Source of the DNA: Loripinus fragilis
Lineage: Eukaryota > Mollusca > Bivalvia > Lucinida > Lucinidae
Direction of reading: 5' to 3'
Assembly (NCBI GenBank): GCA_964019695.1
Contig: OZ026524.1
Coordinates: 23,023,656 to 23,087,655, forward strand
Length of the DNA: 64,000 bases
This document shows, piece after piece, positions 3,195 through 52,071 of the stretch. The translations under genes were made by a program, and so were the position numbers. How positions within the stretch are numbered: position 1 is the stretch's first letter; every line of letters begins with the position of its first letter. The notes below the pieces were generated by a model. It saw only the letters and a list, made by a program, of their open reading frames with translations. It was not told the origin of the DNA and ran no database searches.

Positions 3195-3391
3195 TTTGTT
3201 TGATTTGATTCTTTACGTCCAATCAACAATCTTTCAGTTATGTAGGGACGGGTCTTCCTGGGTTGAACCAGTACTAAGCTAGGATTAATGTGTCTTGCTC
3301 AAGGACACAACGCAGTGACGCCGATGAGACTCAAACCTGCGGCCCCTTGGTCTCGAGTCAAGCACTCTACCACTAAGCCACTGCGCTCCCT
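3195..3391 (-). repeat. tRNA-derived SINE, family A, near full length
   Basis: Read on the minus strand, this has a GGGAGCGCAGTGGCT head with A and B box motifs, a middle with CTTGAGCAAGACACATTAAT, and a tail of GACGTAAAGAATCAAATC followed by AAACAAAC. It is the same family as the copy at 31772-31974, which has clear target duplications. Confidence 0.8.
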
Positions 3392-13159: not shown

Positions 13160-13165
13160 TGTACG
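13160..13165. other. Target-site duplication, left (TGTACG)
   Basis: The hexamer TGTACG directly abuts the left terminus AGTAGTATAGGCCCC and is repeated directly after the right terminus at 28891-28896. A 6-bp duplication is characteristic of Polinton/Maverick integration. Confidence 0.85.
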
Positions 13166-13340
13166 AGTAGTATAGGCCCCACTATAGCGCCAATGACGTC
13201 ACTTCCGATCCAAGATGGCGGCCCCCACGACTTCCGGTCCAAGATGGCGGCCCCCACGACTTCCGGTCCAAGATGGCGGCCCCCACGACACCAAGATGGC
13301 GGCCCCCACGAAATCAAGATGGCGGCCCCTGTGACGCGTT
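13166..13340. promoter_or_regulatory. Left terminal repeat: CRE, ETS-type and five YY1-type sites
   Basis: Just inside the left end stand a CCAAT fused to a perfect CRE/ATF palindrome (TGACGTCA, 13194-13201) and then five tandem copies of a ~25-30-bp unit, AAGATGGCGGCCCC(C)ACGA. The first copies are followed by ACTTCCGGTCC, an ETS/GABP-type site. AAGATGGCGGC is the YY1 consensus. The cluster faces inward from both ends and could drive transcription or assist replication starts. Adenovirus terminal repeats also carry CRE/ATF sites. Function here is inferred. Confidence 0.7.
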
Positions 13341-13724
13341 CGGTTACACCTCGGAGGGTGAGTCAACGCCCTAGACCACGAGAAGGTAGCGTCACGTCCT
13401 AGAGCGCGGTGTCGTTCTTCTATATACAAGGGTGAGGGGCCTCTCATTTATTTCCGGGTGGTTTTTTTTACGAAGTTCAGAACGAGATCCAGTCTTTAAT
13501 GGTGTAGCCCGTCGCAGCGCTCGGTTTATCCCGTTCCCCGGGTGGACCCTTTTTTTTCAGCACGGTCCTTTCATGTCTTTTTCCGCGTACTGATCGGCTT
13601 CGTAATTGGGTCGTTAAGGCTGAGAGGGATATGATTGTCTATCAACGTAGAACGGGTTCCTCGCCATGCATATGGCGTCTGGCTAACTTAGGAGCATATT
13701 GCGCAATTATTTGCCGTTCGTCCT

Positions 13725-14051
13725 TCAGTATCTTAATGAATTCCAGTCCCAAGTTGCTGTCTTACGCCCTCTGTCCGTTATACTATCCTCTCCTTTTCGC
13801 TTAAGCTCCGATTTTGCCATTTCTAAAGCTTGGGCTACAGGGGTGACCAGGTTCACTACGGGTTTCTCCTTTTGTCTCATTTCTTTCAACTCTCTGTATT
13901 TCCGTCCGCTACCCACAATATAATGACCCTGACTGTCGCGTTCCGCGTAGCCATCTCTAACATTCAGCAAGTGCTGAAACCATTTGTCGGGATCCGAGAC
14001 GTACGGAATCCACTTCTGCTGTTGGTAATCGTAAACGAGTCTAGTGCCCAT
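13725..14051 (-). CDS. Conserved 108-aa element protein, left-arm copy
   Basis: This intact 108-codon ORF is the outermost gene of the left arm. It starts MGTRLVYDYQQQKWIPYV and has a tryptophan-rich N-terminal half (WIPYVSDPDKWFQHLL), a glycine-rich GHYIVGSGRKYREL middle and a lysine/arginine-rich C-terminal half. There is no membrane segment or signal peptide. A short basic protein next to a packaging ATPase could be a minor virion or DNA-binding protein, but I do not recognise the family and that role is a guess. It differs from the right-arm copy at one residue (Asn for Asp in LL-N/D-VRDG). Its TATA element is altered compared with the right arm, reading TATGAATA on the coding strand. Confidence 0.75.
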   Translation of the reverse strand: MGTRLVYDYQQQKWIPYVSDPDKWFQHLLNVRDGYAERDSQGHYIVGSGRKYRELKEMRQKEKPVVNLVTPVAQALEMAKSELKRKGEDSITDRGRKTATWDWNSLRY

Positions 14052-14101
14052 CTCTTTCCATCGATTTCCTCCTTCGTGCTCGAGTTATTCTTACGCTCTA
14101 T

Positions 14102-14254
14102 TCATACGAACGGGCGAGAGTTCAGTTCACTATCCTCAAGCACCTCGATTAATCGCTCAGCAGCCTCTCTGGCTTCGCGCCGTAGTTGTCTACATATCAT
14201 CCGAAACAACAGTTCATCAAACAAAGCTATACACATAAAAGTAATGGCGAACAT
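14102..14254 (-). CDS. Small 50-aa ORF, left-arm copy
   Basis: An ORF of 50 codons lies between the double-PC4 gene and the 108-aa gene. It begins MFAITFMCIALFDELLF, a hydrophobic 17-residue N-terminus that could be a short membrane anchor, followed by a charged, probably helical stretch rich in Arg and Glu (QLRREAREAAERLIEVLED). It ends in TGA, where the right-arm copy ends in TAA; the same base change also alters the TATA-like element overlapping the stop. Both arms keep it open with a conservative difference (Ile for Arg after RM), which supports coding. Function unknown. Confidence 0.55.
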   Translation of the reverse strand: MFAITFMCIALFDELLFRMICRQLRREAREAAERLIEVLEDSELNSRPFV

Positions 14255-14293
14255 ATTTACGCCTATTCAATACTTAATCCCTTAGTTTCTTAG

Positions 14294-14779
14294 TTACCAG
14301 TTTTGATAGTCATTAGGGTTACACTCCGAACACCGTAATGCCCCTAACTGATTCATGTGATCACTTTGTACGTAACAGGGTACGACCCCGTCTAGTTCGG
14401 GTAAGGTCCTTCCAATTTCTGTTAAGAGTTCTTTGACGGCAATGTATTCTAGGGGTCTCAGGTATAATCCCTTTTTCGTAGGTATCACCTCTTCTTGCGG
14501 CTTCCAATACTGCCTTATATCCATACATGCGCTGCCCTCGGTGATGGTACAATAGACGTTCCCTCCAAGATGACTCTTATAGTTTTGTTTCTCTGTCCTC
14601 GCTTGATCCGCGTATTCTAAGTAATCCACCCAATTCTTCCATCGCATCAAGGTTAAGCTGATACCTTTTTTGGTCGGTTTGTCATCTTTCCATTCTCTCA
14701 GGTCAACACGCAGTTCACCTTTCCATTCTGTGACCTCGATAAAGCGATCGTTTCCGAGACTGAATCTGCATCTAGACAT
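14294..14779 (-). CDS. Double PC4-like ssDNA-binding protein, left-arm copy
   Basis: It encodes 161 residues from the ATG at 14779; an upstream in-frame ATG (14824) sits almost on the TATA box and is unlikely to be used. Residues ~5-55 (FIEVTEWKGELRVDLREW, then TKKGISLTLMRW) and ~70-122 (CMDIRQYW, then TKKGLYLRPLEY) each match the PC4/Sub1 coactivator fold: a beta sheet with the D-I/L-R-E/Q-W/YW signature, a K-K-G-I/L-x-L strand and a closing helix. PC4 binds single-stranded DNA as a dimer, and a tandem duplicate could do so as a monomer. A role in replication or late transcription of the element is inferred. A C-terminal CSEC pair is a possible half zinc site. It is identical to the right-arm protein. 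It is preceded by a CCAAT+TATA promoter at 14825-14885. Confidence 0.8.
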   Translation of the reverse strand: MSRCRFSLGNDRFIEVTEWKGELRVDLREWKDDKPTKKGISLTLMRWKNWVDYLEYADQARTEKQNYKSHLGGNVYCTITEGSACMDIRQYWKPQEEVIPTKKGLYLRPLEYIAVKELLTEIGRTLPELDGVVPCYVQSDHMNQLGALRCSECNPNDYQNW

Positions 14780-14824
14780 GTTTACTGTTTGACTGTCAGA
14801 ATAGATATGACTAGATTGCTGCAA

Positions 14825-14885
14825 AGCGCCTTATATAGTGAGAGGTCTCTTCTGATTGGTCAATTATCCAGCCATCCGATTGGTC
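14825..14885 (-). promoter_or_regulatory. CCAAT+TATA promoter of the PC4-like gene, left arm
   Basis: On the minus strand, two CCAAT boxes (GACCAATCGG and GACCAATCAG) precede CTATATAA (14831-14838) by about 20-45 bases. The arrangement matches the right-arm promoter at 27175-27230 and the second module at 17759-17790. Confidence 0.65.
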
Positions 14886-14922
14886 AACCTCCTCACTCCT
14901 GATTCCTCCTCCTCATTCTCCT

Positions 14923-16230
14923 TCACGACGTAGTAGAGTCCTCTTGGTCTTCAGAGGCTTTCTCAGTTTCTATATTATGATTCGGCCATACGTCCATAAA
15001 TAAATCTTTTCTGAGTTTGATGGCTTGTCTTTTAGAGTCCGCCTGATTCATATCGTGTTGGTTCTTAAACTTTTTAGCCGATTCCAGTATTCGCTGTTGA
15101 ACAGGATCCTCTTGTAGCTCGTAATAATCTATTAGAAATTGAGCGTAATCTCGTCTGAGTTTTTTGCGGAGAGAAGGCAAATCATCATTGGCTGCGAGAT
15201 GAATAGATTTATCCGAACTAAAACCTCGCTCTTCATAAGCATTCACTTTAGCTTTAAACTGCTCTACGTTCTCCTGCCTGATCGGATTTTGAAATCTCCT
15301 GTTCCAGATGTAGAGTTTAGAGCGCTCATCTCTTTGTTTTCTTCGTTTACCTGGAGGGCTTAAATCGCTTACCCTCCTATTCCATATATCCGGTTTATAA
15401 CTTTCATCTCTTTCTTTATCCGGAGGGCTGATAGAGCGTATATAATCTAGGGACTCCACACTGTCAGCATCTTCATCATCAGAAATATCTCCGTCATCGG
15501 GAGACTGTTGATCGACAAATATGTCAGTTTGTAGTCTGTCCTGTTCGGATGTACTCGATTTAAGATCTAGGATGAGGTAACCATAAGGTCTTGCCGTGGC
15601 ATCTTCAAATTTCCTCATAAATGTGGCGCAAGTGGACGGATAAATTCTTCTTGCCACGGTCGCAACTTGTTGTCTGTCGATCGGATTATTAAACAAGACC
15701 AAATATTGCGTATTTAAAGCGATATCCCTGCAAGCTCTACCTTGAGGAAATACGTTTTGAGTCAAATACACGATAGATATATTTCTGTGGTGACTGCCTT
15801 TCGTAAAAAGGTCGGCAATTCTCTGGTCACACTTTGCTTCGGTCATCAGGTCATCAAAAATGATTAGGTTCCTTTTTGAGGGATCCATAAACTGAGCATT
15901 ATCTAGATAGTCTGGGATACCCCGTATAAATTCTATACACGGAATTCTCTTCTGAAGGTCTTCTTACAGGGGCTGCCATTGTCCAAAACACCATAAGATT
16001 CGTTCCGGTGGCGGTTGTACTAACGAGGAAAGTAACAGTTTTCTAGTCCATTCCGTTTTCCCCGATCCGCTGGGTCCAGTTACCATCATAGAGAATGGGT
16101 GTCTAAATGTCATTTCCTTCAATGGTTGTGACTGGTCGGTATATTTCCCACTGCCATGGACATTGCGTTCATGTCTTTGCAATGCATCACGCCTACTATA
16201 GGACTGGTTGCAGATCAAACACCTGATCAT
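14923..16230 (-). pseudogene. Zinc-finger/FtsK-HerA (A32-like) packaging ATPase, left-arm copy, one nonsense codon
   Basis: The frame is colinear with the right-arm copy over 435 codons but is broken at codon 89, where TAC (Tyr) has become TAA, leaving an 88-residue N-terminal piece and a long open remainder (15888-14923 from its first ATG). It contains an N-terminal C2H2 finger (C4, C7, H20, H25), Walker A GPSGSGKT (52-59), Walker B LIIFDDLM (122-129), an IVYLTQN sensor-like strand and a long charged C-terminal tail. This is the A32/FtsK-HerA class that pumps DNA into virus particles. The codon changed to a stop in the right arm (341) is still lysine here. The break lies between Walker A and Walker B, so no active ATPase is expected. 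Confidence 0.85.
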
Positions 16231-16302
16231 TTTGTCTCAGTTAGTATTGTTTCTCTACCTTCATACGGGTGTCATCCTTCTTACGATCATTGGATCATTG
16301 TG

Positions 16303-16403
16303 ACCACCACCACCGACACCACCACCACCCACCACCACCACCACCCACCACCACCACCACCACCCACCACCACCACCACCACCACCACCACCACCACCAC
16401 CAC
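16303..16403. repeat. (CAC)n trinucleotide microsatellite, left arm
   Basis: A run of CAC/ACC units with a few interruptions lies just upstream of the ATPase gene. It mirrors the (GGT)n tract at 25636-25757 and the two differ in length. The poly-His and poly-Thr frames across it are artefacts. Confidence 0.95.
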
Positions 16404-16419
16404 ATGGTGGACCATTGTT

Positions 16420-17112
16420 TCCTGACTGTACATTCACTGTATCCTCACTGTATCCTCACTGTGCCCCAATGTACCCTCACTGTATACTCACTGTACCCCA
16501 CTGTACTCTCACTGTAACCCCACTGTATCCTCCCTGTACCCTCACTGTATCCCACTTTACCCCAACTGAACCCTCACTGTATCCTCACTGTACCCTCACT
16601 GTATCCTCACTGTACCCCCACTGTACTCTCACTGTATCCCCACTGTATCCTCCCTGTACCCTCAATGTATCCTCCTTCCCTCCTCCTCCTCACCCTCTCC
16701 TCCTCCCTCCTAATCTCACTGTACCCAAACTGAACCCTCACTGTGCCCCAATGTATCCTCACTGTACCCTCATGTACCCTCACTGTATTCCAACTGAACC
16801 CCCACTGTATCCTCACTGTGCCCCAATGTACCCTCACTGTATACTCACTGTACCCCACTGTACTCTCACTGTAACCCCACTGTATCCTCCCTGTACCCTC
16901 AATGTATCCTCCTTTCCTCCTCCTCCTGACCCTCTCCTCCTCCCTCCTAATCCCACTGTACCCCAACTGAACCCTCACTGTGCCCCAATGTACCCTCACT
17001 GTATCCTCACTGTACCCCACTGTACTCTCACTGTATCCCCACTGTATCCTCCCTGTACCCTCACTGTATCCTCCTTCCCCCTCCTCCTCACCCTCTCCTC
17101 CTCCCTCCTAGC
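16420..17112. repeat. 'CACTGTACCCT' minisatellite, left arm
   Basis: About 60 copies of a 9-12-bp unit such as CACTGTATCCT, CACTGTACCC or AACTGAACCC are punctuated by higher-order blocks ending in a pyrimidine-only CCTCCTCC segment. One strand is almost free of G apart from the TGT core. The right arm carries the mirrored array (24911-25618) with different copy arrangement. The long Cys/Pro/Tyr-repeat reading frames are by-products. Confidence 0.95.
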
Positions 17113-17219
17113 TCCATTATGAATTCGAACTATCATGATCACTGTTTTTTACGGCCATTATACTCGTTGTAGAACGTTCTATCATCGTAGGTTCACCGGT
17201 AATTGTGGGTTGACCATGA

Positions 17220-17363
17220 TTATATGATGATTAAGCATAACAGTTTCACTTTAAACAACCAGTCGTCAGCATTTACGCTATGTATAGTCTTAAGATGATG
17301 TACTATATTTAGCACATCCTTTCTATGGCATATTGGACACTGGAACTTGTATCTATGAGGCAT
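17220..17363 (-). CDS. C2H2 zinc-finger microprotein, left-arm copy
   Basis: A 47-codon ORF mirrors 24668-24811. It starts MPHRYKFQCPICHRKDVL and continues into an HHLKTIH segment, giving a C-x2-C pair and histidines suitably spaced for one C2H2 zinc finger. The rest is a short hydrophobic tail (LLCLIII). The finger resembles the one on the ATPase N-terminus in length and position of ligands. Retention of the frame and both cysteines in both arms supports a real small gene. DNA binding is the natural guess; no target or partner is visible. Confidence 0.55.
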   Translation of the reverse strand: MPHRYKFQCPICHRKDVLNIVHHLKTIHSVNADDWLFKVKLLCLIII

Positions 17364-17439
17364 AGTTTTGATCTGTTTTTAAACACCATTTAAAACGAAA
17401 CTTTATGTATATCAGCTTGCTGGGCAAGCCTTTCCTTTT

Positions 17440-17570
17440 AAATCGAAACTTTTATAATACAAACGCGAACCTTCCTTTAAAAACGACACTTTTATGTATA
17501 ACCTGGCAAGTCTTTCCTTTTAAATCTAAACGCTTATAATACAAGTGCGAGCCTTCCTTTTAAAACGACA
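17440..17570. repeat. Tandem repeat block present only in the left arm
   Basis: Units containing CCTTCCTTT-AAAACGACAC and CTTTTATAATACAA repeat about twice, adding roughly 115 bases compared with the right arm at ~24560-24600. It is the largest simple indel I see between the outer arms, and probably a deletion between repeats in the right arm. Confidence 0.6.
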
Positions 17571-17758
17571 CTTTTATGTTTCAGCTTCCTGGGCAATGCT
17601 TTTCACGCGTTCTTATAACGCGAAGATGAATCACGCTATAAAAAAAAACGTGTGGCGTTCGAAAACACCAAACGTTTGAGCTAAATAGTATCATTTAAAC
17701 TGTTCAATTTGCTGTTCGACTGTCATATTAGCTATGACTCGATTGCATGCGATACGCA

Positions 17759-17790
17759 TTATATAGCGGGAGGTTTTTTTCTGATTGGTC
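17759..17790 (-). promoter_or_regulatory. Second CCAAT+TATA module, left arm
   Basis: On the minus strand GACCAATCAG precedes CTATATAA (17759-17766). The leader that follows (CATAGCTAATATGACAGTCG) is related to the leader of the PC4-like gene. The only ATG soon after opens an 11-codon ORF, so the gene it served may be lost. Confidence 0.55.
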
Positions 17791-18276
17791 AATTAAAAGT
17801 AATATCGTTATAAATGTATATCATATGCCATACATTTCGCAATTCGTCTCTAGACTATGAACAGACGATACGTAAGTTGAATTTAGGGGTTAATTGTCTC
17901 ATGTACCTACCTGTACACGAGCAGCGAAGGCTCTGGCGATACCAGCTTGTGTTAAGTCGTTGATGAATACTTTTAAGAAATCTTTATGAGCGTAGGACGC
18001 CTAGTCACTGCGAGAGTTAGGAAAGCTCTGTAATGCGATCATGAGTCGACTATTTAATGTCTACATACGATGATGTCATCCAAAATGGCCGTCGCGCATG
18101 CGCAGTGAAAGCATTTAATTAAACAACATCTATATCCGTACTTTGTACATTAGTTCTCAGGTAAATATAGACTCTGACAAAGGCGAAGAATTATTGGTGT
18201 ATTTATACACCCTAGACATTTAGCATGAAAAGGGCGAAAATCGCCATCGCCTTTCCTAGTACACGCTATAGATACA

Positions 18277-18480
18277 TCAAACGTCTGGTCCGATGGACAG
18301 GCTCATCTGCTTGAATAACGCACTCTGATCAGTAAATTCGATGTTGAACAGCGAAGACCCAACGCAATGATACAGCAAAGTCGTCCGTATTGAAAAGGTG
18401 GGTTTTCCGTGGGCCTGTCTCAATTCCTCCTGGCTGACCGGATCTGACCGGCTGCATTCACTTTGATCCATGTTTTGAAA
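18277..18480 (-). pseudogene. Truncated ORF fragment reading outward, left half of fold-back
   Basis: From MDQSECSRSDPVSQEELR this runs on through FSIRTTLLYHC and ends FKQMSLSIGPDV. The 51 C-terminal residues are shared with the mirrored ORF on the right. Upstream of the shared part the two sequences differ because they enter the 69-bp spacer, so at least one copy lacks its natural N-terminus. The left version may still carry a native start. I do not recognise the family. Conservation of the frame in both halves suggests it came from a real gene of the element. Confidence 0.4.
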
Positions 18481-18501
18481 TTGCTTATCGATTTTACAAT
18501 T

Positions 18502-18657
18502 CAGGAGGAATTGAGACAGGCCCACGGAAAACCCACCTTTTCAATACGGACGACTTTGCTGTATCATTGCGTTGGGTCTTCGCTGTTCAACATCGAATTT
18601 ACTGATCAGAGTGCGTTATTCAAGCAGATGAGCCTGTCCATCGGACCAGACGTTTGA
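18502..18657 (+). pseudogene. Truncated ORF fragment reading outward, right half of fold-back
   Basis: This is the mirror copy of the 51-residue C-terminal part ending MSLSIGPDV, joined upstream to unrelated spacer sequence (in-frame ATG at 18463). It probably has no functional start. Function unknown. Confidence 0.4.
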
Positions 18658-19385
18658 TGTATCTATAGCGTGTACTAGGAAAGGCGATGGCGATTTTCGC
18701 CCTTTTCATGCTAAATGTCTAGGGTGTATAAATACACCAATAATTCTTCGCCTTTGTCAGAGTCTATATTTACCTGAGAACTAATGTACAAAGTACGGAT
18801 ATAGATGTTGTTTAATTAAATGCTTTCACTGCGCATGCGCGACGGCCATTTTGGATGACATCATCGTATGTAGACATTAAATAGTCGACTCATGATCGCA
18901 TTACAGAGCTTTCCTAACTCTCGCAGTGACTATAGTACTGCCACATTAATAAGAAACGCGAAAAATCGACTTTAAGTGCATCTTTTCACGTTATTTTCTC
19001 TAGAACTTTTCGATATGCGGGTAGAAAAAGCTGCAGTATTTTTTGACAAAATTTTCAACCTGATGTTTTTGCTGTATTTTTCTGTAATTAGATGGAATTT
19101 TGGCATATTTTGGCTCTTTTCAACGGGGGAGTATTACTGTTGGTAGAATGGACATAAACTGACCCAGTTTATTAATATTATGCAACGGTTGACTTAATAA
19201 TTCGTCCGTGATCCCCGTGTAGGTTATATACTGAACAAAAGTAAAAACGCTACACCTGAACTGTTTGTCATTTATATGCAAAATGATGCAATCCAGTAAA
19301 GCAAATGAAAGTGTATCTGACTGTTCAAAGACTGGGTTATGCATTAAGTAAAAGGTTTACGGATATTGTCCCGAGGAAACACATG

Positions 19386-19560
19386 AAAGTAAGAAAGAGG
19401 GCAAAGATCAGGAATCGATACAATCAAGCCCAAACGTGACACAGGATTGGAAAGTGATAACTTCGCAATTAGACATTACAAATGAGAGCCAAGAGGTCAG
19501 CCCTTTCCAAGCAAGCAATAAACAGACGCGCACGAAAGCATAACACAAACAAGACAGAAA
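19386..19560 (+). repeat. Dispersed repeat family D, diverged copy
   Basis: It shares GCAAAGATCAGGAATCGATA, GAGAGCCAAGAGGTCAGCCC and AAACAGACGCGCAC, in order, with the copies at 48185-48420 and 57533-57765. Confidence 0.75.
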
Positions 19561-19819
19561 TATTAATTTAAATGTGACAGGGGTCCATTTTTTCAGGTTA
19601 CAAATTGGAACAGAAATCTCAAACAGTTTAGGCCTTCAGAAATCCACAGCCAACTTGATCCGACTGAACGAAATTGTAGTCGTAGACATGTGACAACCAA
19701 AAATACAGTATGCATTGATCGTTTAGAAAAGCAACCTAAGAAAGAGGGTTTGTCGTCAAATTGGCCAAGCTTGATATTTTAAAACTGAAATCTCCATAAG
19801 AAAATCAATGTGTTGTTGC

Positions 19820-20035
19820 ATCTTAAGCCTCGTGCAAATATACACCCAGGTGTAAATTTGCACCTGGGTGTATTTTGGTTATGTAAACGGTGTTTTATGA
19901 AAATGCAACCGGGTGCAAATTTGCATCTGGGTGCAAATTTGCTCCACCTTTGCTGGTGGTGCAAATTCGGTGGAGCAAAATTAGCACCCGGCTGCACATT
20001 TGCCCCTAGGTGCAAATTGCGCACATGAACGCAAC
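19820..20035. repeat. Cluster of palindromic GGGTGCAAATTTGCACC motifs
   Basis: At least six copies of GGTGCAAATTTGC or its complement occur in 200 bases, some arranged head to head. It begins TTAAGCCTCGTGCAAATATA and resembles the cluster at 21395-21500, whose far end reads CGAGGCTTTAG, so the two clusters could be inverted ends of an older element. Confidence 0.6.
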
Positions 20036-20455
20036 TCGTTATCACATATGTACAATTTGATCGTAGATATTGATAAATTACCGATCTTTCTATATGAACA
20101 TGTACATGTGTATGAAAATAAACTATATAAATAGTCCCTTTATCAAACTTAAGGTCATGGCTTCTCTCTGTAGTCACTACTTCATCGGCTATGCCGGGTT
20201 GCCACGCAGAACAACTGGAATCTCTGGTCTATGGGCTTCGATTTGCACGATTCTATTTCCGAACAATATTTCTTCCTAACCTCGGCAATAGAAATCAGAG
20301 TTTGCCAGAACCCTGGCGCCATGCACGAGTCCATGCTATCCGATGTACACATCGGTGAAAAGGTTCCCCCCTGCAGAATAACGGAGTGACCACCCTTTAC
20401 GATTGATGTAATCAACGTGATGTTCAGACAGAGCAATAATTAAAATTTGTCTACC

Positions 20456-21180
20456 CTCTATCTTACCCCCCCCCCCCCCCAATTTGGGAATCTAAACCTC
20501 TTGTAGCCATTGATAACCTCGGTTGAGCCATTTCCCTTCAGAAGCTTAACAGAGATTTAGAAGAGTTCATCAACAATTGAAGACCAAACCCGTTTCACAC
20601 ATTCACAAGACGTTTATTTTGCTATTACGAAGAAGTTCTCAATTGTCCAGCTCTGCGCAGTCCTAAGTCAAACTGCCACCAGCAGTTCAATTGAAACAAC
20701 TTAACGAACACGCCCATTCTGTTGCAGCTTTTTGCGCAGTTTGTCGCAGAGCCCGTGACATTCGGAAGCCATGGATCATCAGTTCATGTATAAGTCTCAA
20801 GCACTACCTGCGTCCACCTCTCTTGGCCAGATAGTCATATATTTACTTAGTACTGCTGCAACAGCTTCTATAAGTGTCATTAATGCACCAGTCATTTGTA
20901 TCCACTGCTCCCCCACCCACGGGGATGGGCGGGGATAATGGTTTACACTTTCCAGAGCCCTGGTATAAGCCCCGCCCTGTGGGGACAAGCTGATGGTAAC
21001 AACCCTGCTCTTTGCCCCACCATACACAACAGAAAATCCCAGCAGGGTAATCGTCCCAATGTTATACCCCCACACTTCCCCGGCACTGCGGGACCAATCA
21101 AAAAGTAATTGTCCAGCACCTTACCCCTGCTTTTCCACGGCTATCTCCGTAGGTGGGGGCCGTGGATACAAATGACTGGT
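20456..21180. other. C-rich tract and GC-richer segment without recognised genes
   Basis: It holds a run of about 14 C at 20466-20480 and a GC-richer stretch around 20890-21110. The short ORFs have no domains. Confidence 0.4.
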
Positions 21181-21394
21181 GTATTATCCTCTTTAAATAT
21201 TGTATAAAAAAATAAAGCAAATAAAACCAAATGGAGGTGCATTTTTCTCACACGACAGTATCTTGAACTGACTAATAGTCGAAACATTCTTAACACATCG
21301 AACTTCTCCTTAAAGTAAAACTGAAACATTTGTGATATGTTTAAAGAGCAAATCCAATAACATATGAACACAATTTATTATATATGAACGCTAC

Positions 21395-21500
21395 AAAAGG
21401 GGTGCAAATTTACTCCCGGGTGCTCCCAGGTGCAATTTTGCACCCGGGAGTAAATTTGCACCAGGGTGCAAATTGTGCATATAAACGAGGCTTTAGTCTG
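21395..21500. repeat. Second cluster of GTGCAAATTT palindromes
   Basis: Contains GGGGTGCAAATTTACTCCCG, GGTGCAATTTTGCACCC and GGGAGTAAATTTGCACC. It is inverted relative to 19820-20035 at its outer end. Confidence 0.6.
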
Positions 21501-22047
21501 AGCACATTACTGGTCGAGAAATGGTAGGAACAATGCGCTGATAGGTCTACCTGATTAGGCAAAAGGAAGAAAGTTATCGAAAATCGTGATAAATCGAAGA
21601 TTACCAAATATTTAATATTCCCTATTTGTTTTTGTCAAAGGGAGACATTTTACATTTTTTTCAAATTTGATAAATTCGAAATTGATTTCTGAGCTTGTTT
21701 CAAGTGATAATACAGTTTTCTTGTGTATTAATGCAACACAAGTATGCCGAATTCTGATAAGCATAACAATCTTTTTTGCGCATGCGCAATTGCAAAATTC
21801 AGTGAATAAAGCTTTAATCACAAAAAAGGAATGAACTCAGACATCAAACGAAACAAATTGGTGGAGCTTCGACGAATCGCTTGCTGGATGCCTTGAAAAT
21901 ATTATTAAAGACATATGCGGCTATTTCCAACGCGCACCTTTTCCGCGTCTGGAAACGGATAAAGTTGTCTGGGTCCTGTCTTTCGACCATTAACGGATTC
22001 GGATCTCTACTATTTGTATGGTTATTTAGAGCGGCGCACGACCTGAC

Positions 22048-22118
22048 CCCGTGGCCTAGTAATTAGCGTGTCTGGCTACAAAGCCAGAGGACCAGGATCG
22101 ATTCCAGGGTGCGCACAT
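22048..22118 (+). repeat. tRNA-like sequence (SINE head or tRNA pseudogene)
   Basis: GTGGCCTAGTAATTAGCG resembles an A box, TCTGGCTACAAAGCCAGA an anticodon arm, and GGATCGATTCC a B box. The anticodon loop does not have the standard seven bases and the acceptor ends do not pair well, so I do not call a functional tRNA. Confidence 0.4.
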
Positions 22119-23466
22119 ATTTTCAGTGTGTTTTTTCTTTCTTTTTTAACATTTCATTGCTAAATTGCTTCATATACTAGTAAAATGGCATCATCAAAAC
22201 GACCGAAATGGTAATTCCTGAACTTTTATTTTGAATTACGCATGAAACCTATGGGGGTGGGGTTAAATTTGGCCCTCTTGAAAGAGAATTAGTTCGGTGA
22301 CCCCACATTTTTATTCTTTTTTCTGAAAGGTTTTATAATAGTCCATGAATTAAAAATAAATTTTTAAGATTTTCAATACCAGATTTTTTACTACATGATT
22401 TATTATAAAAGCAAATTCCAATTTTCCACGAATTGCCAAAATATATCATGCAGTATCTTGTCACAGCATGGGATAACAAATAAACTTGCACATTTTCTAA
22501 AAGGTTTGAGGTCATGGGCAATAATTTAAGTTAAAAGAAAGAAGTTGGCTGAAGATTACAACCGTTTTAGCTCGATATTTAGGACTAGTACTATTATTTT
22601 ATTTTTTTTAGAAAATTGGTCAAATGCTGAAAATTTCAATTTGAGATTCTGAAAAAATAAGCACGGTGACATATCCTTTTTATTTCATAAATGGATAGCC
22701 CATGCATAAAACAAACTGTATGCAGAGTATTGAAAATATTTCAATGTGGGAAGTATTTAGAAGCATATGTCCTTAAGCTTTAGTAAATACTTTTCGTCCA
22801 AATATAAAATACTGTGGTGTAGCATTTTCACTATTGTTCAGTATAGCATAAAGTGTATCTAAATATAAAGTACTGCTGCATAAATAAGAAACTTTAGATG
22901 TATGTTTTCAATTTAAATCGCATTGAGCATTGAGCATTCAATAATCGTGTATCCTTTCAGGCAGTATTTAGCCGGTATTACAGCTTATTTTTGCTCTAAT
23001 GATTCTGATGGTAGAATTTGGGCATTTTATTCCACTTATTTGACACTTGACAGGGATAATCCTGGGATAGGCCTTATCCATTTTGTTAGAAAACTATTAT
23101 TTCTGCTAAAATGGACGTTATTTTTGCTGGGTCTCATATATAAGCTATGCAAAGCTCTTGTCAATTATGCTCTAATATAGATATTAAAGATTCTTGGACC
23201 CATCAAATTTTGCAAAGGGCCCATAGAAATTTCAAAAGGCCAATTGAAATTATGTAATCTGCATGGATTTGAATAGGATATGGGCCATTGGCCCGTTTTA
23301 AGGGTCCATCATCATTTTGGTCCAGGAGTATCCCTGACTTAAGTGTTACCATTGAAAGAATGTATGTAAACAGCTCAAATTAACTAATTACAAAAAATGA
23401 ATGGTTGACTATAATACTACATATGTAGTTGAAAATGTTTAGGCCGTTTACCACTGTAAAAGTTTC

Positions 23467-23631
23467 GGGAGCCGCTGTGGTGTAGTGGATAAACCGCTTG
23501 CCTTGTAAACCAGGGGTCGCAGGTTCGATTCCCGGCTTCACCAGTCTGTCGGATGAGACTTAAAGAAGTGGCCCCGTCTCCATATGACCTTAGCTGTTGG
23601 TGGGACGTTAAACACAAACGCAACAACAACA
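23467..23631 (+). repeat. tRNA-derived SINE, family B
   Basis: The head has GTGGTGTAGTGGATAAACCG, an anticodon-like CTTGTAA and GGTTCGATTCCCGGC. The body has CTGTCGGATGAGACTTAAAG. The tail is GGGACGTTAAACACAAACGC followed by CAACAACAAC. It appears in reverse and damaged at 6260-6410. Confidence 0.75.
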
Positions 23632-24136
23632 ACTGTAAAAGTTGTTTTTATAAAACTGTCCATAATAGCAACATCACGCTGTTTTAGTAGAAAATGTCCT
23701 TACAAACATAGCAAACAGTATTTACTCGGATCAAACTGATCGTATTGGATCAGTTGGATATGTGTCTACGCTGATTGAATCGATACTATCAACTGAATGG
23801 CAGTGCTTAAAAATAAAACTGGCACGTACAAAGCAATCGCGATTTTAAAATGTGTGATGCTTTTGACACTTACCTGTAGAAAATTAAGTACAGATATATA
23901 GGCCGTCACATGGCTGTTACACCGTTTGAATTCCCCCCGCTTTTCAGAAAGCCTAAAAATGTCGAAATTCCCAAGAGATTAGGGGTCAGGGCAGTGGTAG
24001 TAGATTCTTCAAACAATTTTCTTCTGACACTGCAGGATTTTCTAAATCCAGATTTGAGCCTAACGTTCGGAAAAATGCAAGTAATAAAATAATATTCCAG
24101 ATTTTCGCGTTTCTTATTATTGCGACAGGACTATAG

Positions 24137-24238
24137 GCGTCCTACGCTCATAAAGATTTCTTAAAAGTATTCATCAACGACTTAACACAAGCTGGTATCG
24201 CCAGAGCCTTCGCTGCTCGTGTACAGGTAGGTACATGA
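24137..24238 (+). pseudogene. Open fragment next to the palindrome junction (weak)
   Basis: A 33-codon open frame without a start begins right at the junction of the outer arm, directly after an in-frame TAG, and contains FLKVFINDLTQAGIARAFAA. The same frame is open in the left arm (18001-17899). It may be the 3' end of a gene cut off when the palindrome formed, but it is short enough to be chance. Confidence 0.25.
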
Positions 24239-24344
24239 GACAATTAACCCCTAAATTCAACTTACGTATCGTCTGTTCATAGTCTAGAGACGAATTGCGA
24301 AATGTATGGCATATGATATACATTTATAACGATATTACTTTTAA

Positions 24345-24380
24345 TTGACCAATCAGAAAAAAACCTCTCGCTATATAATG
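24345..24380 (+). promoter_or_regulatory. Second CCAAT+TATA module, right arm
   Basis: GACCAATCAG is followed about 20 bases later by CTATATAA (24371-24378). It mirrors 17759-17790 and resembles the promoter of the PC4-like gene including the leader. Confidence 0.55.
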
Positions 24381-24667
24381 CGTATCGCATGCAATCGAGT
24401 CATAGCTAATATGACAGTCGAACAGCAAATTGAACAGTTTAAATGATACTATTTAGCTCAAACGTTTGGTGTTTTCGAACGCCACACGTTTTTTTTTATA
24501 GCGTGATTCATCTTCGCGTTATAAGAACGCGTGAAAAGCATTGCCCAGGAAGCTGAAACATAAAAGTGTCGTTTTATAAAAGTTTCGATTTAAAAGGAAA
24601 GGCTTGCCCAGCAAGCTGATATACATAAAGTTTCGTTTTAAATGGTGTTTAAAAACAGATCAAAACT

Positions 24668-24811
24668 ATGCCTCATAGATACAAGTTCCAGTGTCCAATA
24701 TGCCATAGAAAGGATGTGCTAAATATAGTACATCATCTTAAGACTATACATAGCGTAAATGCTGACGACTGGTTGTTTAAAGCGAAACTGTTATGCTTAA
24801 TCATTATATAA
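24668..24811 (+). CDS. C2H2 zinc-finger microprotein, right-arm copy
   Basis: A 47-codon ORF (MPHRYKFQCPIC and onward) has one potential C2H2 finger (C-x2-C, then an HHLKTIH segment) and a hydrophobic end. It stands ~290 bp downstream of the CCAAT+TATA module and ahead of the minisatellite. The mirrored left-arm ORF is also intact, with a synonymous change near the stop. See 17220-17363 for interpretation. Confidence 0.55.
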   Translation: MPHRYKFQCPICHRKDVLNIVHHLKTIHSVNADDWLFKAKLLCLIII

Positions 24812-24910
24812 TCATGGTCAACCCACAATTACCGGTGAACCTACGATGATAGAACGTTCTACAACGAGTATAATGGCCGTAAAAAACAGTGATCATGATA
24901 GTTCGAATTC

Positions 24911-25618
24911 ATAATGGAGCTAGGAGGGAGGAGGAGAGGGTGAGGAGGAGGGGGAAGGAGGATACAGTGAGGGTACAGGGAGGATACAGTGGGGATACAG
25001 TGAGAGTACAGTGGGGTACAGTGAGGATACAGTGAGGGTACATTGGGGCACAGTGAGGGTTCAGTTGGGGTACAGTGGGATTAGGAGGGAGGAGGAGAGG
25101 GTCAGGAGGAGGAGGAAAGGAGGATACATTGAGGGTACAGGGAGGATACAGTGGGGTTACAGTGAGAGTACAGTGGGGTACAGTGAGTATACAGTGAGGG
25201 TACATTGGGGCACAGTGAGGATACAGTGGGGGTTCAGTTGGGATACAGTGAGGGTACAGTGGGGTACAGTGAGGATACAGTGAGGGTACATTGGGGCACA
25301 GTGAGGGTTCAGTTTGGGTACAGTGAGATTAGGAGGGAGGAGGAGAGGGTGAGGAGGAGGAGGGAAGGAGGATACATTGAGGGTACAGGGAGGATACAGT
25401 GGGGATACAGTGAGAGTACAGTGGGGGTACAGTGAGGATACAGTGAGGGTACAGTGAGGATACAGTGAGGGTTCAGTTGGGGTAAAGTGGGATACAGTGA
25501 GGGTACAGGGAGGATACAGTGGGGTTACAGTGAGAGTACAGTGGGGTACAGTGAGTATACAGTGAGGGTACATTGGGGCACAGTGAGGATACAGTGAGGA
25601 TACAGTGAATGTACAGTC
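24911..25618. repeat. 'AGGGTACAGTG' minisatellite, right arm
   Basis: This is the mirrored array of 16420-17112: units of AGGATACAGTG, GGGGTACAGTG and AGGGTACATTG with GGAGGAGGAG blocks. Block order and number differ from the left arm, showing array turnover after the palindrome formed. Confidence 0.95.
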
Positions 25619-25635
25619 AGGAAACAATGGTCCAC

Positions 25636-25757
25636 CATGTGGTGGTGGTGGTGGTGGTGGTGGTGGTGATTGGTGGTGGTGGTGGTGGTGGTGGTGGGTG
25701 GTGGTGGTGGTGGTGGGTGGTGGTGGTGGTGGGTGGTGGTGGTGTCGGTGGTGGTGG
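25636..25757. repeat. (GGT)n trinucleotide microsatellite, right arm
   Basis: A GGT/GTG run with GATT and GTC interruptions lies directly upstream of the ATPase gene. It is longer than its left-arm mirror. Confidence 0.95.
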
Positions 25758-25830
25758 TCACAATGATCCAATGATCGTAAGAAGGATGACACCCGTATGA
25801 AGGTAGAGAAACAATACTAACTGAGACAAA

Positions 25831-27138
25831 ATGATCAGGTGTTTGATCTGCAACCAGTCCTATAGTAGGCGTGATGCATTGCAAAGACATGAACGCAATG
25901 TCCATGGCAGTGGGAAATATACCGACCAGTCACAACCATTGAAGGAAATGACATTTAGACACCCATTCTCTATGATGGTAACTGGACCCAGCGGATCGGG
26001 GAAAACGGAATGGACTAGAAAACTGTTACTTCCCTCGTCAGTACAACCGCCACCGGAACGAATCTTATGGTGTTTTGGACAATGGCAGCCCCTGTACGAA
26101 GACCTTCAAAAGAGAATTCCGTGTATAGAATTTATACGGGGTATCCCAGACTATCTAGATAATGCTCAGTTTATGGATCCCTCAAAAAGGAACCTAATCA
26201 TTTTTGATGACCTGATGACCGAAGCAAAGTGTGACCAGAGAATTGCCGACCTTTTTACGAAAGGCAGTCACCACAGAAATATATCTATCGTGTATTTGAC
26301 TCAAAACGTATTTCCTCAAGGTAGAGCTTGCAGGGATATCGCTTTAAATACGCAATATTTGGTCTTGTTTAATAATCCGATCGACAGACAACAAGTTGTG
26401 ACCTTGGCAAGAAGAATTTATCCGTCCACTTGCGCCACATTTATGAGGAAATTTGAAGATGCCACGGCAAGACCTTATGGTTACCTCATCCTAGATCTTA
26501 AATCGAGTACATCCGAACAGGACAGACTACAAACTGACATATTTGTCGATCAACAGTCTCCCGATGACGGAGATATTTCTGATGATGAAGATGCTGACAG
26601 TGTGGAGTCCCTAGATTATATACGCTCTATCAGCCCTCCGGATAAAGAAAGAGATGAAAGTTATAAACCGGATATATGGAATAGGAGGGTAAGCGATTTA
26701 AGCCCTCCAGGTAAACGAAGAAAACAAAGAGATGAGCGCTCTAAACTCTACATCTGGAACAGGAGATTTCAAAATCCGATCAGGCAGGAGAACGTAGAGC
26801 AGTTTAAAGCTAAAGTGAATGCTTATGAAGAGCGAGGTTTTAGTTCGGATTAATCTATTCATCTCGCAGCCAATGATGATTTGCCTTCTCTCCGCAAAAA
26901 ACTCAGACGAGATTACGCTCAATTTCTAATAGATTATTACGAGCTACAAGAGGATCCTGTTCAACAGCGAATACTGGAATCGGCTAAAACGTTTAAGAAC
27001 CAACACGATATGAATCAGGCGGACTCTATAAGACAAGCCATCAAACTCAGAAAAGATTTATTTATGGACGTATGGCCGAATCATAATATAGAAACTGAGA
27101 AAGCCTCTGAAGACCAAGAGGACTCTACTACGTCGTGA
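25831..27138 (+). pseudogene. Zinc-finger/FtsK-HerA (A32-like) packaging ATPase, right-arm copy, one nonsense codon
   Basis: The frame starts MIRCLICNQSYSRRDALQRH, a C2H2 finger (C4, C7, H20, H25) not usual in Polinton ATPases. Walker A GPSGSGKT is at 52-59, Walker B NLIIFDDLM at 121-129, and an ISIVYLTQNVF strand and an acidic stretch (SDDEDADSVE) follow. The ATPase core is intact to codon 340; codon 341 is TAA where the left arm has AAA (Lys), and the frame then stays open to 27138. A truncated 340-residue protein with all ATPase motifs could still be made. The family packages DNA into virus shells. The zinc finger may recognise the element's own DNA (inference). The next gene, the PC4-like one, starts 143 bp downstream. 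Confidence 0.88.
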
Positions 27139-27174
27139 AGGAGAATGAGGAGGAGGAATCAGGAGTGAGGAGGT

Positions 27175-27232
27175 TGACCAATCGGATGGCTGGATAATTG
27201 ACCAATCAGAAGAGACCTCTCACTATATAAGG
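27175..27232 (+). promoter_or_regulatory. CCAAT+TATA promoter of the PC4-like gene, right arm
   Basis: Two CCAAT boxes (27178 and 27202) precede CTATATAA (27223-27230). The ATG at 27282 lies ~52 bases after the TATA, which leaves room for a start site about 30 bases downstream. Confidence 0.68.
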
Positions 27233-27281
27233 CGCTTTGCAGCAATCTAGTCATATCTATTCTGACAGTCAAACAGTAAAC

Positions 27282-27767
27282 ATGTCTAGATGCAGATTCA
27301 GTCTCGGAAACGATCGCTTTATCGAGGTCACAGAATGGAAAGGTGAACTACGTGTTGACCTGAGAGAATGGAAAGATGACAAACCGACCAAAAAAGGTAT
27401 CAGCTTAACCTTGATGCGATGGAAGAATTGGGTGGATTACTTAGAATACGCGGATCAAGCGAGGACAGAGAAACAAAACTATAAGAGTCATCTTGGAGGG
27501 AACGTCTATTGTACCATCACCGAGGGCAGCGCATGTATGGATATAAGGCAGTATTGGAAGCCGCAAGAAGAGGTGATACCTACGAAAAAGGGATTATACC
27601 TGAGACCCCTAGAATACATTGCCGTCAAAGAACTCTTAACAGAAATTGGAAGGACCTTACCCGAACTAGACGGGGTCGTACCCTGTTACGTACAAAGTGA
27701 TCACATGAATCAGTTAGGGGCATTACGGTGTTCGGAGTGTAACCCTAATGACTATCAAAACTGGTAA
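27282..27767 (+). CDS. Double PC4-like ssDNA-binding protein, right-arm copy
   Basis: 161 residues, identical to the left-arm protein. Repeat 1 spans ~5-55 (RFIEVTEWKGELRVDLREW) and repeat 2 ~70-122 (ACMDIRQYW, KKGLYLRPLEY), each with the PC4/Sub1 signature. I chose the ATG at 27282 over 27237, which is only 7 bases from the TATA box. In cells PC4 binds melted DNA and assists polymerase II. Here it may serve as the element's single-strand-binding protein or a transcription activator. With the ATPase core it is one of the two genes that can be assigned a biochemical class. Confidence 0.8.
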   Translation: MSRCRFSLGNDRFIEVTEWKGELRVDLREWKDDKPTKKGISLTLMRWKNWVDYLEYADQARTEKQNYKSHLGGNVYCTITEGSACMDIRQYWKPQEEVIPTKKGLYLRPLEYIAVKELLTEIGRTLPELDGVVPCYVQSDHMNQLGALRCSECNPNDYQNW

Positions 27768-27803
27768 CTAAGAAAAGGGATTAAGTATTGAATAGGCGTA
27801 AAT

Positions 27804-27956
27804 ATGTTCGCCATTACTTTTATGTGTATAGCTTTGTTTGATGAACTGTTGTTTCGGATGAGATGTAGACAACTACGGCGCGAAGCCAGAGAGGCTGCTG
27901 AGCGATTAATCGAGGTGCTTGAGGATAGTGAACTGAACTCTCGCCCGTTCGTATAA
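27804..27956 (+). CDS. Small 50-aa ORF, right-arm copy
   Basis: It begins MFAITFMCIALFDELLF and continues into a charged helix (REAREAAERLIEVLED), ending FV-TAA. The stop codon lies inside the TATAAATA presumed to serve the next gene, a compact arrangement. A possible membrane-anchored or leader peptide; function unknown. Confidence 0.55.
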   Translation: MFAITFMCIALFDELLFRMRCRQLRREAREAAERLIEVLEDSELNSRPFV

Positions 27957-27960
27957 ATAG
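27951..27960 (+). promoter_or_regulatory. TATA element of the 108-aa gene, right arm
   Basis: GTATAAATAG lies 47 bases before the ATG at 28007 and overlaps the stop of the 50-aa ORF. In the left arm the same site reads GTATGAATAG. Confidence 0.5.
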
Positions 27961-28006
27961 AGCGTAAGAATAACTCGAGCACGAAGGAGGAAATCGATGG
28001 AAAGAG

Positions 28007-28333
28007 ATGGGCACTAGACTCGTTTACGATTACCAACAGCAGAAGTGGATTCCGTACGTCTCGGATCCCGACAAATGGTTTCAGCACTTGCTGGATGTTA
28101 GAGATGGCTACGCGGAACGCGACAGTCAGGGTCATTATATTGTGGGTAGCGGACGGAAATACAGAGAGTTGAAAGAAATGAGACAAAAGGAAAAACCCGT
28201 AGTGAACCTGGTCACCCCTGTAGCCCAAGCTTTAGAAATGGCAAAATCGGAGCTTAAGCGAAAAGGAGAGGATAGTATAACGGACAGAGGGCGTAAGACA
28301 GCAACTTGGGACTGGAATTCATTAAGATACTGA
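28007..28333 (+). CDS. Conserved 108-aa element protein, right-arm copy
   Basis: An intact ORF, identical to 13725-14051 except for one residue (Asp for Asn). It has a W-rich N-terminal half (KWIPYV, DKWFQHLL), a GHYIVGSGRKY segment and a basic end containing KSELKRKGEDS. A poly(A) signal AATAAA follows at 28605-28610. The role is unknown; a small basic virion or nucleic-acid-binding protein is possible. Confidence 0.75.
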   Translation: MGTRLVYDYQQQKWIPYVSDPDKWFQHLLDVRDGYAERDSQGHYIVGSGRKYRELKEMRQKEKPVVNLVTPVAQALEMAKSELKRKGEDSITDRGRKTATWDWNSLRY

Positions 28334-28715
28334 AGGACGAACGGCAAATAATTGCGCAATATGCTCCTAAGTTAGCCAGACGCCATATGCATGGCGAGGA
28401 ACCCGTTCTACGTTGATAGACAATCATATCCCTCTCAGCCTTAACGACCCAATTACGAAGCCGATCAGTACGCGGAAAAAGACGTGAAAGGACCGTGCTG
28501 AAAAAAAAGGGTCCACCCGGGGAACGGGATAAACCGAGCGCTGCGACGGGCTACACCATTAAAGACTGGATCTCGTTCTGAACTTCGTAAAAAAACCACC
28601 CGGAAATAAATGAGAGGCCCCTCACCCTTGTATATAGAAGAACGACACCGCGCTCTAGGACGTGACGCTACCTTCTCGTGGTCTAGGGCGTTGACTCACC
28701 CTCCGAGGTGTAACC

Positions 28716-28890
28716 GAACGCGTCACAGGGGCCGCCATCTTGATTTCGTGGGGCCGCCATCTTGGTGTCGTGGGGGCCGCCATCTTGGACCGGAAGTCGT
28801 GGGGGCCGCCATCTTGGACCGGAAGTCGTGGGGGCCGCCATCTTGGATCGGAAGTGACGTCATTGGCGCTATAGTGGGGCCTATACTACT
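28716..28890. promoter_or_regulatory. Right terminal repeat: CRE, ETS-type and five YY1-type sites
   Basis: Mirror of the left end: five GCCGCCATCTT units, two to three CCGGAAGT (ETS/GABP) sites and TGACGTCA at 28855-28862, then the terminus CCTATACTACT ending at 28890. Unit number is the same as in the left arm. Confidence 0.7.
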
Positions 28891-28896
28891 TGTACG
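28891..28896. other. Target-site duplication, right (TGTACG)
   Basis: Directly repeats 13160-13165 and abuts the right terminus of the element. Confidence 0.85.
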
Positions 28897-28906: not shown

Positions 28907-29697
28907 TCTAAACTCCAGCTGTTAAGTTTTTAGACTTAAATTTTCGCAATAACTTTTTTGTCTTCAATTTTAGCAAAATGTGTTCGCGATGAAAGTTGTA
29001 GAGGAGAATTACCGCCAACTTCTCCAAAAGGTCGTGTGCTTGTGGCGCAAACAGATTTTTTTGTATGTAGATGAAGTTTTTGCAATAAAATTGAATTCGT
29101 CCTAAGTTTCTAAGTCTTTAAATGACAGGTATAATTCGTATAGGCGTGACAGAAAGGGGTAGTTTCAAAAAACATATTCGGAAGCGGTGCAAATCCCGTT
29201 CTTTAAAGGCTGTGCATAACATAAAACTGCCGTTAACATACTCAGAGTTTACCTTGCATTTGCAGAATCAACTTAAAGCAGGCTCATTTGTAGGAACAAA
29301 GGCTGGGTTATCGCATGACGTGCAATTTTTCTCAATGCACGTGCTATGAAATGAACGGTTTTGAGATGACCCTTCTAGTTTAACGCACGAGCCAATCAGG
29401 CGCGATTTCTATTACATTTGAACAAGCCATCCATCGCTTTAGTAATTGAATTAGGGCGGTGCAATGTACATTTTTGACTGACATCTTGGACTATGTTTAT
29501 TTGGGCTTTGTTTAAAATATTCAAAGAGTGAATCTAAGCACAGGGAACCTGCAGCATCTAGAATGTTAGAACCATTCGGAGAAGTTGGCGGAGTTGTTCC
29601 TGAATACTTTTCATCGCCAACACATTTTGCTAAAATCGAAGACAAAAAAGTTATTGCGAAAAATTAAGTCTAAAAACTTAACAGCTGGAGTTTAGTG
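28907..29697. mobile_element. MITE-like element with ~110-bp terminal inverted repeats
   Basis: The ends are inverted copies: CTAAACTCCAGCTGTTAAGT inward from each side, continuing through TTTTCGCAATAACTTTTTTG and ATTTTAGCAAAATGTGTT. GCATT flanks both sides (28902-28906 and 29698-29702), a likely target duplication. There is no transposase; the ORF at 29122-29349 has no known domain. It lies only ten bases from the edge of the palindromic element. Confidence 0.75.
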
Positions 29698-45900: not shown

Positions 45901-46712
45901 AGGCAATGTATATTGTCTTTTAACTTCGTCAATTTTATTATTCATTGTTCTTAAGTAGTCTTTATCATTCAAAAGAGAGTTATTGTGCTTCCAGAGGGGT
46001 TTTCCTTTTTGGAACTGAACAAAAGATATGTCTAGAATAATCATGGAGTGATCTGATCTGTAACTTCCTTCAATTGAACATTTGTTAATTGAAGTGAGTA
46101 AATCTTGTGAAACAAGGAAATAATCAAGCCGGGCTTGCTTTATTGGAGATTTTTTTCTCCATGTATATCTTCTTAATGAGGGGTATGCTTCTCTGAATGG
46201 GTCAACTAGACAATAATTTTCCTTAATTTGTAAGATTTTTTCATGTGATTTCTTATTATTAATAGTAATATAATTAAAGTAATCTAATTTTTCATTTTGA
46301 ACAGTATTGAAATCTCCACATATGATTAAGCTGGCATTTCCTATTCGTTCAGCTATATTTATAATGTTATCAAAAAAATTAAGGGTGTCTTTGTTAGGTC
46401 CATATAAGTTTATTAAGGTAAATCTATCATTTTCAACTGCTAAGTCACAAATTATGTAGTTTCCTTCTGGGTCAGATATGTGCTCATGTATTTTATAAAC
46501 GAAGTTACTCCTCTAGAATTTGATGTGCCTGAGCTAAAAATACAATCATTTTCCCACTGAGACCTGAACAGACGCTCAGATGACTTGCTAGTGTGTGTGT
46601 CTTGAAGGCAATAAATGTCACATTTTCTGTCTTTCAAGTAGTTTAGAACATCTAATCTTTTTTCCAAAGAACCTATACCCTGACAGTTAGCAGAAAGTAT
46701 TTTTATGGACAT
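42976..46712 (-). pseudogene. Tx1/L1-like LINE ORF2, decayed
   Basis: On the minus strand an endonuclease start (MSIKILSANCQGIGSLEKRL, later CGDFNT and a catalytic DHS) is followed by a coiled linker. A reverse transcriptase then shows SPGSDGFSAEFF, LLLSVDFEKAFDSVSW, GRGCRQGDPVSTFLFILCAE and the catalytic QYADDTLFLI. The C-terminal end has a CSFC-x-HMLWQC zinc knuckle typical of such LINEs. The frame shifts near 46480, 45090, 44770, 44300, 44150, 43600 and 43370, and a TAA replaces a sense codon near 45017, so this is a dead copy. The GRGCRQGDP form recalls Tx1-like L1 elements. The 5' ORF1 was not found. Confidence 0.88.
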
Positions 46713-46789
46713 GCTTTTACTACACAGATAGGCTGCCAGGCTTTGAGTGATAGTAGAGAATCCAAGACAATTGAGAAATATAAACAAGA

Positions 46790-50115: not shown

Positions 50116-50134
50116 AAGAGCACACATACACACG

Positions 50135-51310: not shown

Positions 51311-51316
51311 GGTACA

Positions 51317-52051: not shown

Positions 52052-52071
52052 TACTATATATGCACAGAACA

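Follow-up and report, generated by a model that had tools for sequence, protein, structure and literature searches.

Polintons, or Mavericks, are regarded as having a central place in eukaryotic DNA virus evolution (PMC6431247, accessible part). According to the accessible part of PMC8097293, intact vertebrate Mavericks measure 12.7-24.6 kb and have terminal repeats of 46-1,447 bp; the accepted end motifs are (AGT)2//(ACT)2 or (AG)3//(CT)3, and AGTAGT...ACTACT, found together with 6-bp target duplications, is the most frequent. Here we describe an element at positions 13166-28890 of a window of 64,000 nucleotides (nt) from the bivalve Loripinus fragilis (contig OZ026524.1, positions 23,023,656 to 23,087,655), which has in common with Polintons/Mavericks and adintoviruses the 6-bp duplication, the (AGT)2//(ACT)2 ends, the inverted ends and a packaging ATPase of the A32/FtsK type. 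In contrast to these systems, its repeats fill nearly the whole element, and no polymerase was found among its open reading frames or by tblastn. With arms of 5.27 kb and a total of ~10.5 kb without a nested insertion, it lies outside the vertebrate ranges of both repeat length and size. The element is probably one copy of a multi-copy, non-autonomous mobile palindrome that was built from one end (~5.3 kb) of a Polinton/adintovirus-like genome and carries the same viral terminus twice.

The closest documented molecular form appears, by analogy, to be the looped asymmetric snapback genomes of adeno-associated virus (AAV). As described in the accessible part of PMC8235507, AAV snapback genomes are subgenomic particles found alongside the full virus, self-complementary and derived from one end of the viral genome, with a loop in the asymmetric ones; unlike the element described here, an apparently multi-copy integrated form bordered by a target duplication, they are packaged molecules. 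Structurally, our element is likewise a self-complementary copy of one genome end around a short loop, as expected of a snapback satellite, and its Polinton ends and duplication, without a polymerase of its own in the searches made, are those of a non-autonomous Polinton/adintovirus derivative.

AAV replication is not protein-primed. Protein-primed replication does underlie the palindromic defective genomes of adenoviruses, which carry the same terminus twice as our element does, but which are neither integrated nor amplified in the host germ line. Very long inverted repeats with short tandem arrays and a small centre are also found in Foldback (FB) and hairpin transposons; these belong to other transposon groups, whereas the ends, duplication and genes found here are Polinton-like. 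No palindromic Polinton or Maverick was named in the titles and abstract openings listed in searches of mainly non-subscription literature. The accessible part of PMC11202377 uses a class 'palindrome' for polymorphic segments of which inverted repeats make up >90%, with no stated tie to its Mavericks.

Architecture and ends of the palindrome

Self-BLAST of the window aligned positions 13161-17460 with 28895-24571 (98.7% identity) and 17558-18003 with 24579-24134 (99.6%) in inverted orientation, and the innermost part forms a hairpin in which 18002-18432 pairs with 18932-18502 over 431/431 bp. The palindrome proposed in the original prediction, which had been made from the letters alone, is thus real. 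Its left arm (13166..18432, +) is uninterrupted and 5,267 bp long, and its unpaired centre is a loop of 69 nt (18433..18501; coordinates given without a sign denote features assigned to no strand). The mirror arm consists of an inner part (18502..18932, -) and an outer part (24134..28890, -) that ends with ACTACT. Inverted arms had been predicted correctly; their length had been put at ~4.8 kb rather than ~5.27 kb, because a 5,201-bp insertion interrupts the right arm and the estimate stopped at ~18000/24130. Apart from this insertion, the element is a nearly perfect palindrome.

Directly outside the two ends lies the hexamer TGTACG in the same orientation (13160..13165 and 28891..28896), as had been noticed before. 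The chance of one preset 6-mer match of this kind is 1/4096, and although TGTACG is nearly its own reverse complement, 4/6 bases match inverted versus 6/6 direct. The flanks are not mirrored: over ~500 bases on each side, they show no similarity above that of 50 shuffles, either direct or inverted. This single 6-bp duplication and the unmirrored flanks support a palindrome that pre-dated integration and entered as one unit, as originally suggested; two separate insertions are ruled out by the one duplication and the continuous palindrome. The left arm opens with AGTAGTATAG, which includes the Maverick (AGT)2 motif, and the left and right termini, AGTAGT and ACTACT, together make up the (AGT)2//(ACT)2 pair. 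End motif, 6-bp duplication and the packaging-type ATPase described below all bear out the relationship to Polintons and adintoviruses.

Short terminal tandem repeats with units of 29 bp and 23 bp (CAAGATGGCGGC x5) occupy 13201..13329 (+) and are mirrored at 28728-28855. Each terminus (13166-13330 and 28728-28890) contains five copies of CAAGATGGCGGC and one of TGACGTCA. Within the whole window, CAAGATGGCGGC is confined to both termini, and it stands on the inward-reading strand, while the arm genes read outward. We take CAAGATGGCGGC and TGACGTCA to resemble YY1 and CRE sites. Further inside lie a trinucleotide microsatellite adjoining the start of the ATPase gene (16303..16403) and an array of ~60 copies of an 11-bp unit (16421..17073, +; mirrored at 24958-25621). 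The G+C content of the arm is 44.9%, compared to 35.9% and 37.5% in two 10-kb flanks.

The arms have diverged slightly. Alignment of 13161-18003 with 28895-24134 revealed 22 substitutions and 6 indels; one of the substitutions (13165) falls inside the target duplication, leaving 21 in the arms proper (~5.2 kb), and tandem repeats account for three indels, of 11, 19 and 106 bp. Ten substitutions affect the frames of the ATPase and of a PC4-like protein (2 silent, 6 missense and 2 stops).

Palindromic centres in other protein clusters

The open frame that crosses the centre of the palindrome (18283-18540) was used as a query and matched 15 protein clusters. Five of these (P0241, P0242, P0246, P0247 and P0248) follow the arm inward, pass through all or part of the loop and continue outward on the mirror arm. 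The longest contig has a different length in each (2.99, 7.28, 0.56, 3.08 and 3.99 Mb, respectively). P0241, with 11 member sequences, has the same centre as the window: it shares the loop, differs at 3/79 residues and then changes frame. P0246 and P0247 have a common loop, which is related to that of the window but longer, and P0248 has yet another one. In P0242, the 11-bp array of the arm runs straight into the loop end and the far arm.

Four of these clusters were subjected to a mirror test, in which the inward residues are compared with those that an exact mirror of the outward ones would allow. In P0247, 40/44 inward residues are compatible with an exact mirror, whereas only 0-10/44 fit (~5 on average; 34-44/44 fail) in 200 shuffles of the outward residues. 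The other clusters gave 14/14 (P0248), 7/7 (P0241) and 6/6 (P0246), and the window itself, as a control, 19/19. Relative to the window, P0247 differs at 4/44 inward residues; one of its differences is, at the protein level, compatible with a single kind of base change that hit both arms at mirrored positions.

The palindromic centre thus appears to be common to several loci, and therefore the palindrome is either older than these copies or was formed separately in each. If it is older, arms evolving independently would be expected to differ within an element at least as much as between elements. This is not seen: 21 substitutions separate the two arms of the window over ~5.2 kb, whereas P0247 departs from the window at 4/44 inward residues. 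The arms either are homogenised on folding or stem from repeated formation of the palindrome; a fold-back step is needed either way. From the sequences compared, the arm pairs look homogenised within an element.

The original prediction had proposed a defective molecule captured once or, as an alternative, an element for which a fold-back form is a normal stage of replication. The same or a related palindromic centre in 5/15 other protein clusters speaks against the first. The second is favoured, as centres of this kind in other clusters point to a multi-copy mobile form.

Arm genes, their relatives and the nested insertion

As had been predicted, both arms carry the same genes, and all of them read outward. 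They are a zinc finger-ATPase and a PC4/p15-like gene. In the left arm, the gene for a C2H2 zinc finger and A32-type packaging ATPase (14923..16236, -) has its own single premature stop; in the right arm (25825..26853, +), it is truncated by a different one. As the premature stops differ, the gene was still open at the last point at which the arms were the same, and its decay came later. By type, this is the ATPase expected of an autonomous Polinton/Maverick, though the gene is broken in both arms; intact relatives, such as P0001 (435 aa), are present in the database. Pfam recognises A32 in the right-arm protein above the cut-off (E 1.1e-6) and IVa2 below it (E 0.02), and the shorter left-arm piece gives a sub-threshold A32 match only. 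The predicted ATPase structure is of modest quality (mean pLDDT 68). Searched against viral models, it has as its first-ranked match the FtsK-like protein of Drosophila-associated adintovirus 3 (E 6.9e-9), with which a Terrestrivirus NTPase ties at the same E-value; against the PDB, the first match of the model is a packaging NTPase.

The PC4/p15-like frame is open in both arms (14294..14830, -, Pfam PF02229 E 6.4e-19; 27231..27767, +). The PC4 profile matches twice within the protein, and a PDB profile search with its alignment matches solved PC4 structures. PC4 binds single-stranded DNA. An outward-reading open frame of 119 aa (13728..14084, -) is a third candidate arm gene without a significant family match. 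A PHROGs search gave no significant match.

Genes for replication and integration were looked for as well. There is no long open reading frame for a polymerase, and tblastn of the window with the polymerases of two environmental contigs, L001 and L002, gave nothing better than E 1. A protease was not found by tblastn against the window with the L002 protease and small L001 and L002 proteins, a search that included no capsid query. For an integrase, there is neither an open reading frame of that size nor a Pfam match in the scanned frames, searches that included no integrase query across the full element.

Both genes have many relatives. Among the matches listed (the best 120 of 895 for the ATPase and the best 120 of 301 for PC4), those of the ATPase at 95-97% identity fall into clusters of 1802, 303 and 231 sequences; for PC4, matches at 93-98% identity make up clusters of 796, 257, 217, 216 and 168 sequences as well as smaller ones. 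Judged by these cluster sizes, the element family is numerous. Named sources among the matches listed are Ruditapes, Mactra and one contig in a metagenome-assembled genome of Candidatus Thiodiazotropha. More distant relatives were found by a genome contig scan in L001 and L002, where an ATPase with 41-42% identity lies downstream of a type-B DNA polymerase, assigned by Pfam in L001 and by 47% identity to the L001 enzyme over 255 columns in L002. L002 additionally encodes an adenovirus-type protease. Viral contigs were scanned with the 22-base terminus, with alignments of the ATPase and of PC4 and with the ATPase itself, and none of these scans revealed a relative; a scan with the L001 ATPase returned L003 alone, with a short, weak match in a 267-kb contig.

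The insertion in the right arm (18933..24133, 5,201 bp) has inverted ends of 32 bp that are alike at 28/32 positions (TAGTACTGCC/TAGTCCTGTC) and is flanked by TA on the left (18931..18932) and on the right (24134-24135). The matching site in the left arm is a single uninterrupted CTAG. The TA on both sides and the intact left-arm site therefore indicate that a TA-duplicating element entered one arm of a pre-existing palindrome. Readings of the duplication as CTATAG or GACTATAG were dropped, as TA fits the uninterrupted left-arm site exactly, and so was that of a Polinton with a unique 5-kb middle, since this sequence was inserted later and into one arm only. Pfam searches with 10 of the 31 frames of at least 60 aa in the insertion gave two weak sub-cut-off matches and no transposase. 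Near 22040 and 23470, stretches resembling transfer RNA (tRNA) and looking like short interspersed nuclear elements (SINEs) were noted by eye; Rfam lists neither.

Outside the element, a small pair of inverted repeats (28908-29695; 125 nt, 88%), perhaps a miniature inverted-repeat transposable element, starts 11 bases beyond the right duplication. Self-BLAST offsets also show a tandem array with a ~115-bp unit in two blocks (47592-50120), and 51316-52052 contains a recent near-tandem duplication of 358 bp (99% identical). Broken frames at 42976-46832 (-) resemble a non-long-terminal-repeat retrotransposon, and the frame 45424-46512 matches endonuclease profiles just under the Pfam cut-offs. 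Two weak tRNA family matches (3316-3387, -; 31777-31848, +) were not called by ARAGORN and are probably tRNA-derived SINEs.

Proposed origin and spread of the palindrome

How could a mobile palindrome of this kind arise? During protein-primed strand-displacement replication, a strand might have turned back onto itself close to where the centre now lies (snap-back). Copying of the first half would then leave a short loop and a genuine terminus at both ends, so that the polymerase of a helper virus or element could prime either end and its integrase could insert the molecule. For its spread, displaced single strands would form a long hairpin closed at one end by the loop, and priming at the open end followed by copying around the loop would restore the palindrome. 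Repair of the hairpin would maintain the similarity of the two arms. Single strands arising in such a hairpin cycle may be bound by the PC4-like protein, and packaging as a satellite may once have been possible through the packaging ATPase genes.

A more far-reaching version, which we put forward tentatively, is that the element is a satellite replicon whose normal genome is the self-complementary hairpin itself, with one protein-primed terminus and one looped end. Copying around the loop would generate the palindromic duplex that integrates, folding in each cycle would homogenise the arms, and the family would have reached many copies in the bivalve genome at the expense of a full-length adintovirus.

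Several observations speak against a multi-copy mobile palindrome. Among the 15 centre clusters, ten show no far arm, and four of the five positive ones consist of one sequence each; of the four mirror tests, three had at most 14 residues to compare. The two arms of P0247 disagree at 4/44 residues, as would be expected of an older, decaying copy, but this also limits the argument: homogenisation may be imperfect or may have been halted at insertion. Upstream of the arm, P0244, P0251, P0252, P0255 and P0254 contain a part without a convincing match in the window, which could represent other insertions or a non-palindromic parent. The large clusters of arm-gene relatives count sequences that perhaps come from several assemblies or haplotypes. 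No polymerase or protease gene was found in the searches described above, and mobility must therefore come from elsewhere; no helper was seen. Lastly, the arm genes read outward, whereas in most vertebrate Mavericks the modules face inward (PMC8097293, accessible part).

The other clusters without a far arm (P0243, P0245, P0249, P0250 and P0253) begin at the arm or at most 15 residues ahead of it. In P0244, P0251, P0252 and P0255, the arm is joined to a common upstream sequence of ~54 residues that is absent from the window; this joint would be a different centre, an insertion or the parent form.

Of the rival explanations, recurrent formation survives best, although we consider it unlikely. 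Here, full-length elements would have a hot spot close to the centre at which snap-back occurred repeatedly, and the palindrome itself would not replicate. This would account for arms that are more alike within than between elements and for loops that vary between clusters. However, P0241 with its 11 sequences has the same centre as the window, and another loop is common to P0246 and P0247; such shared centres suggest descent. In addition, no full-length element of the family was seen in the scans made.

A one-off capture, in which a single defective Polinton/adintovirus snap-back molecule integrated at this locus and all other arm copies belong to ordinary full-length elements, is still less probable. 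It would agree with the single 6-bp duplication and the near-identical arms, and snap-back genomes, some with a loop, have been described for AAV (PMC8235507, accessible part). Against it, the same palindromic centre or a related one is spanned by five further protein clusters, and P0241 has the same loop yet departs from the window at three of 79 residues before its frame change.

Highly improbable is an origin in place, by which an ordinary integrated Polinton became palindromic while the chromosome replicated, its terminal repeats having recombined or served for template switching. Chromosomes in general are known to undergo fold-back inversions, and the outer duplication would survive such an event. 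It would, however, require the loss of all but one end and inverted copying that halts exactly at the other terminus, and it leaves the same centre in other clusters unexplained. Least credible of all is a library or assembly artefact, that is, a fold-back read or collapsed inverted haplotypes: fold-back artefacts do occur in long reads (PMC12870357, accessible part), but such a source of the palindrome is unlikely because the flanks are unmirrored and bear a 6-bp duplication, the arms are separately mutated, one arm has an insertion where the site in the other is uninterrupted, and the same centre appears in proteins of other contigs.

Polinton replication has so far mostly been inferred from gene content. 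If the element is indeed a multi-copy mobile palindrome, its integrated copies would record in the genome how strands switch during protein-primed replication, and a snap-back molecule could itself become a lasting mobile element. The family would also provide a natural test of how inverted arms remain identical and, should the satellite replicon prove true, would evolve as a half-genome written twice. For the host, long palindromes can fold and destabilise chromosomes, so that many copies would bear on the stability of its genome.

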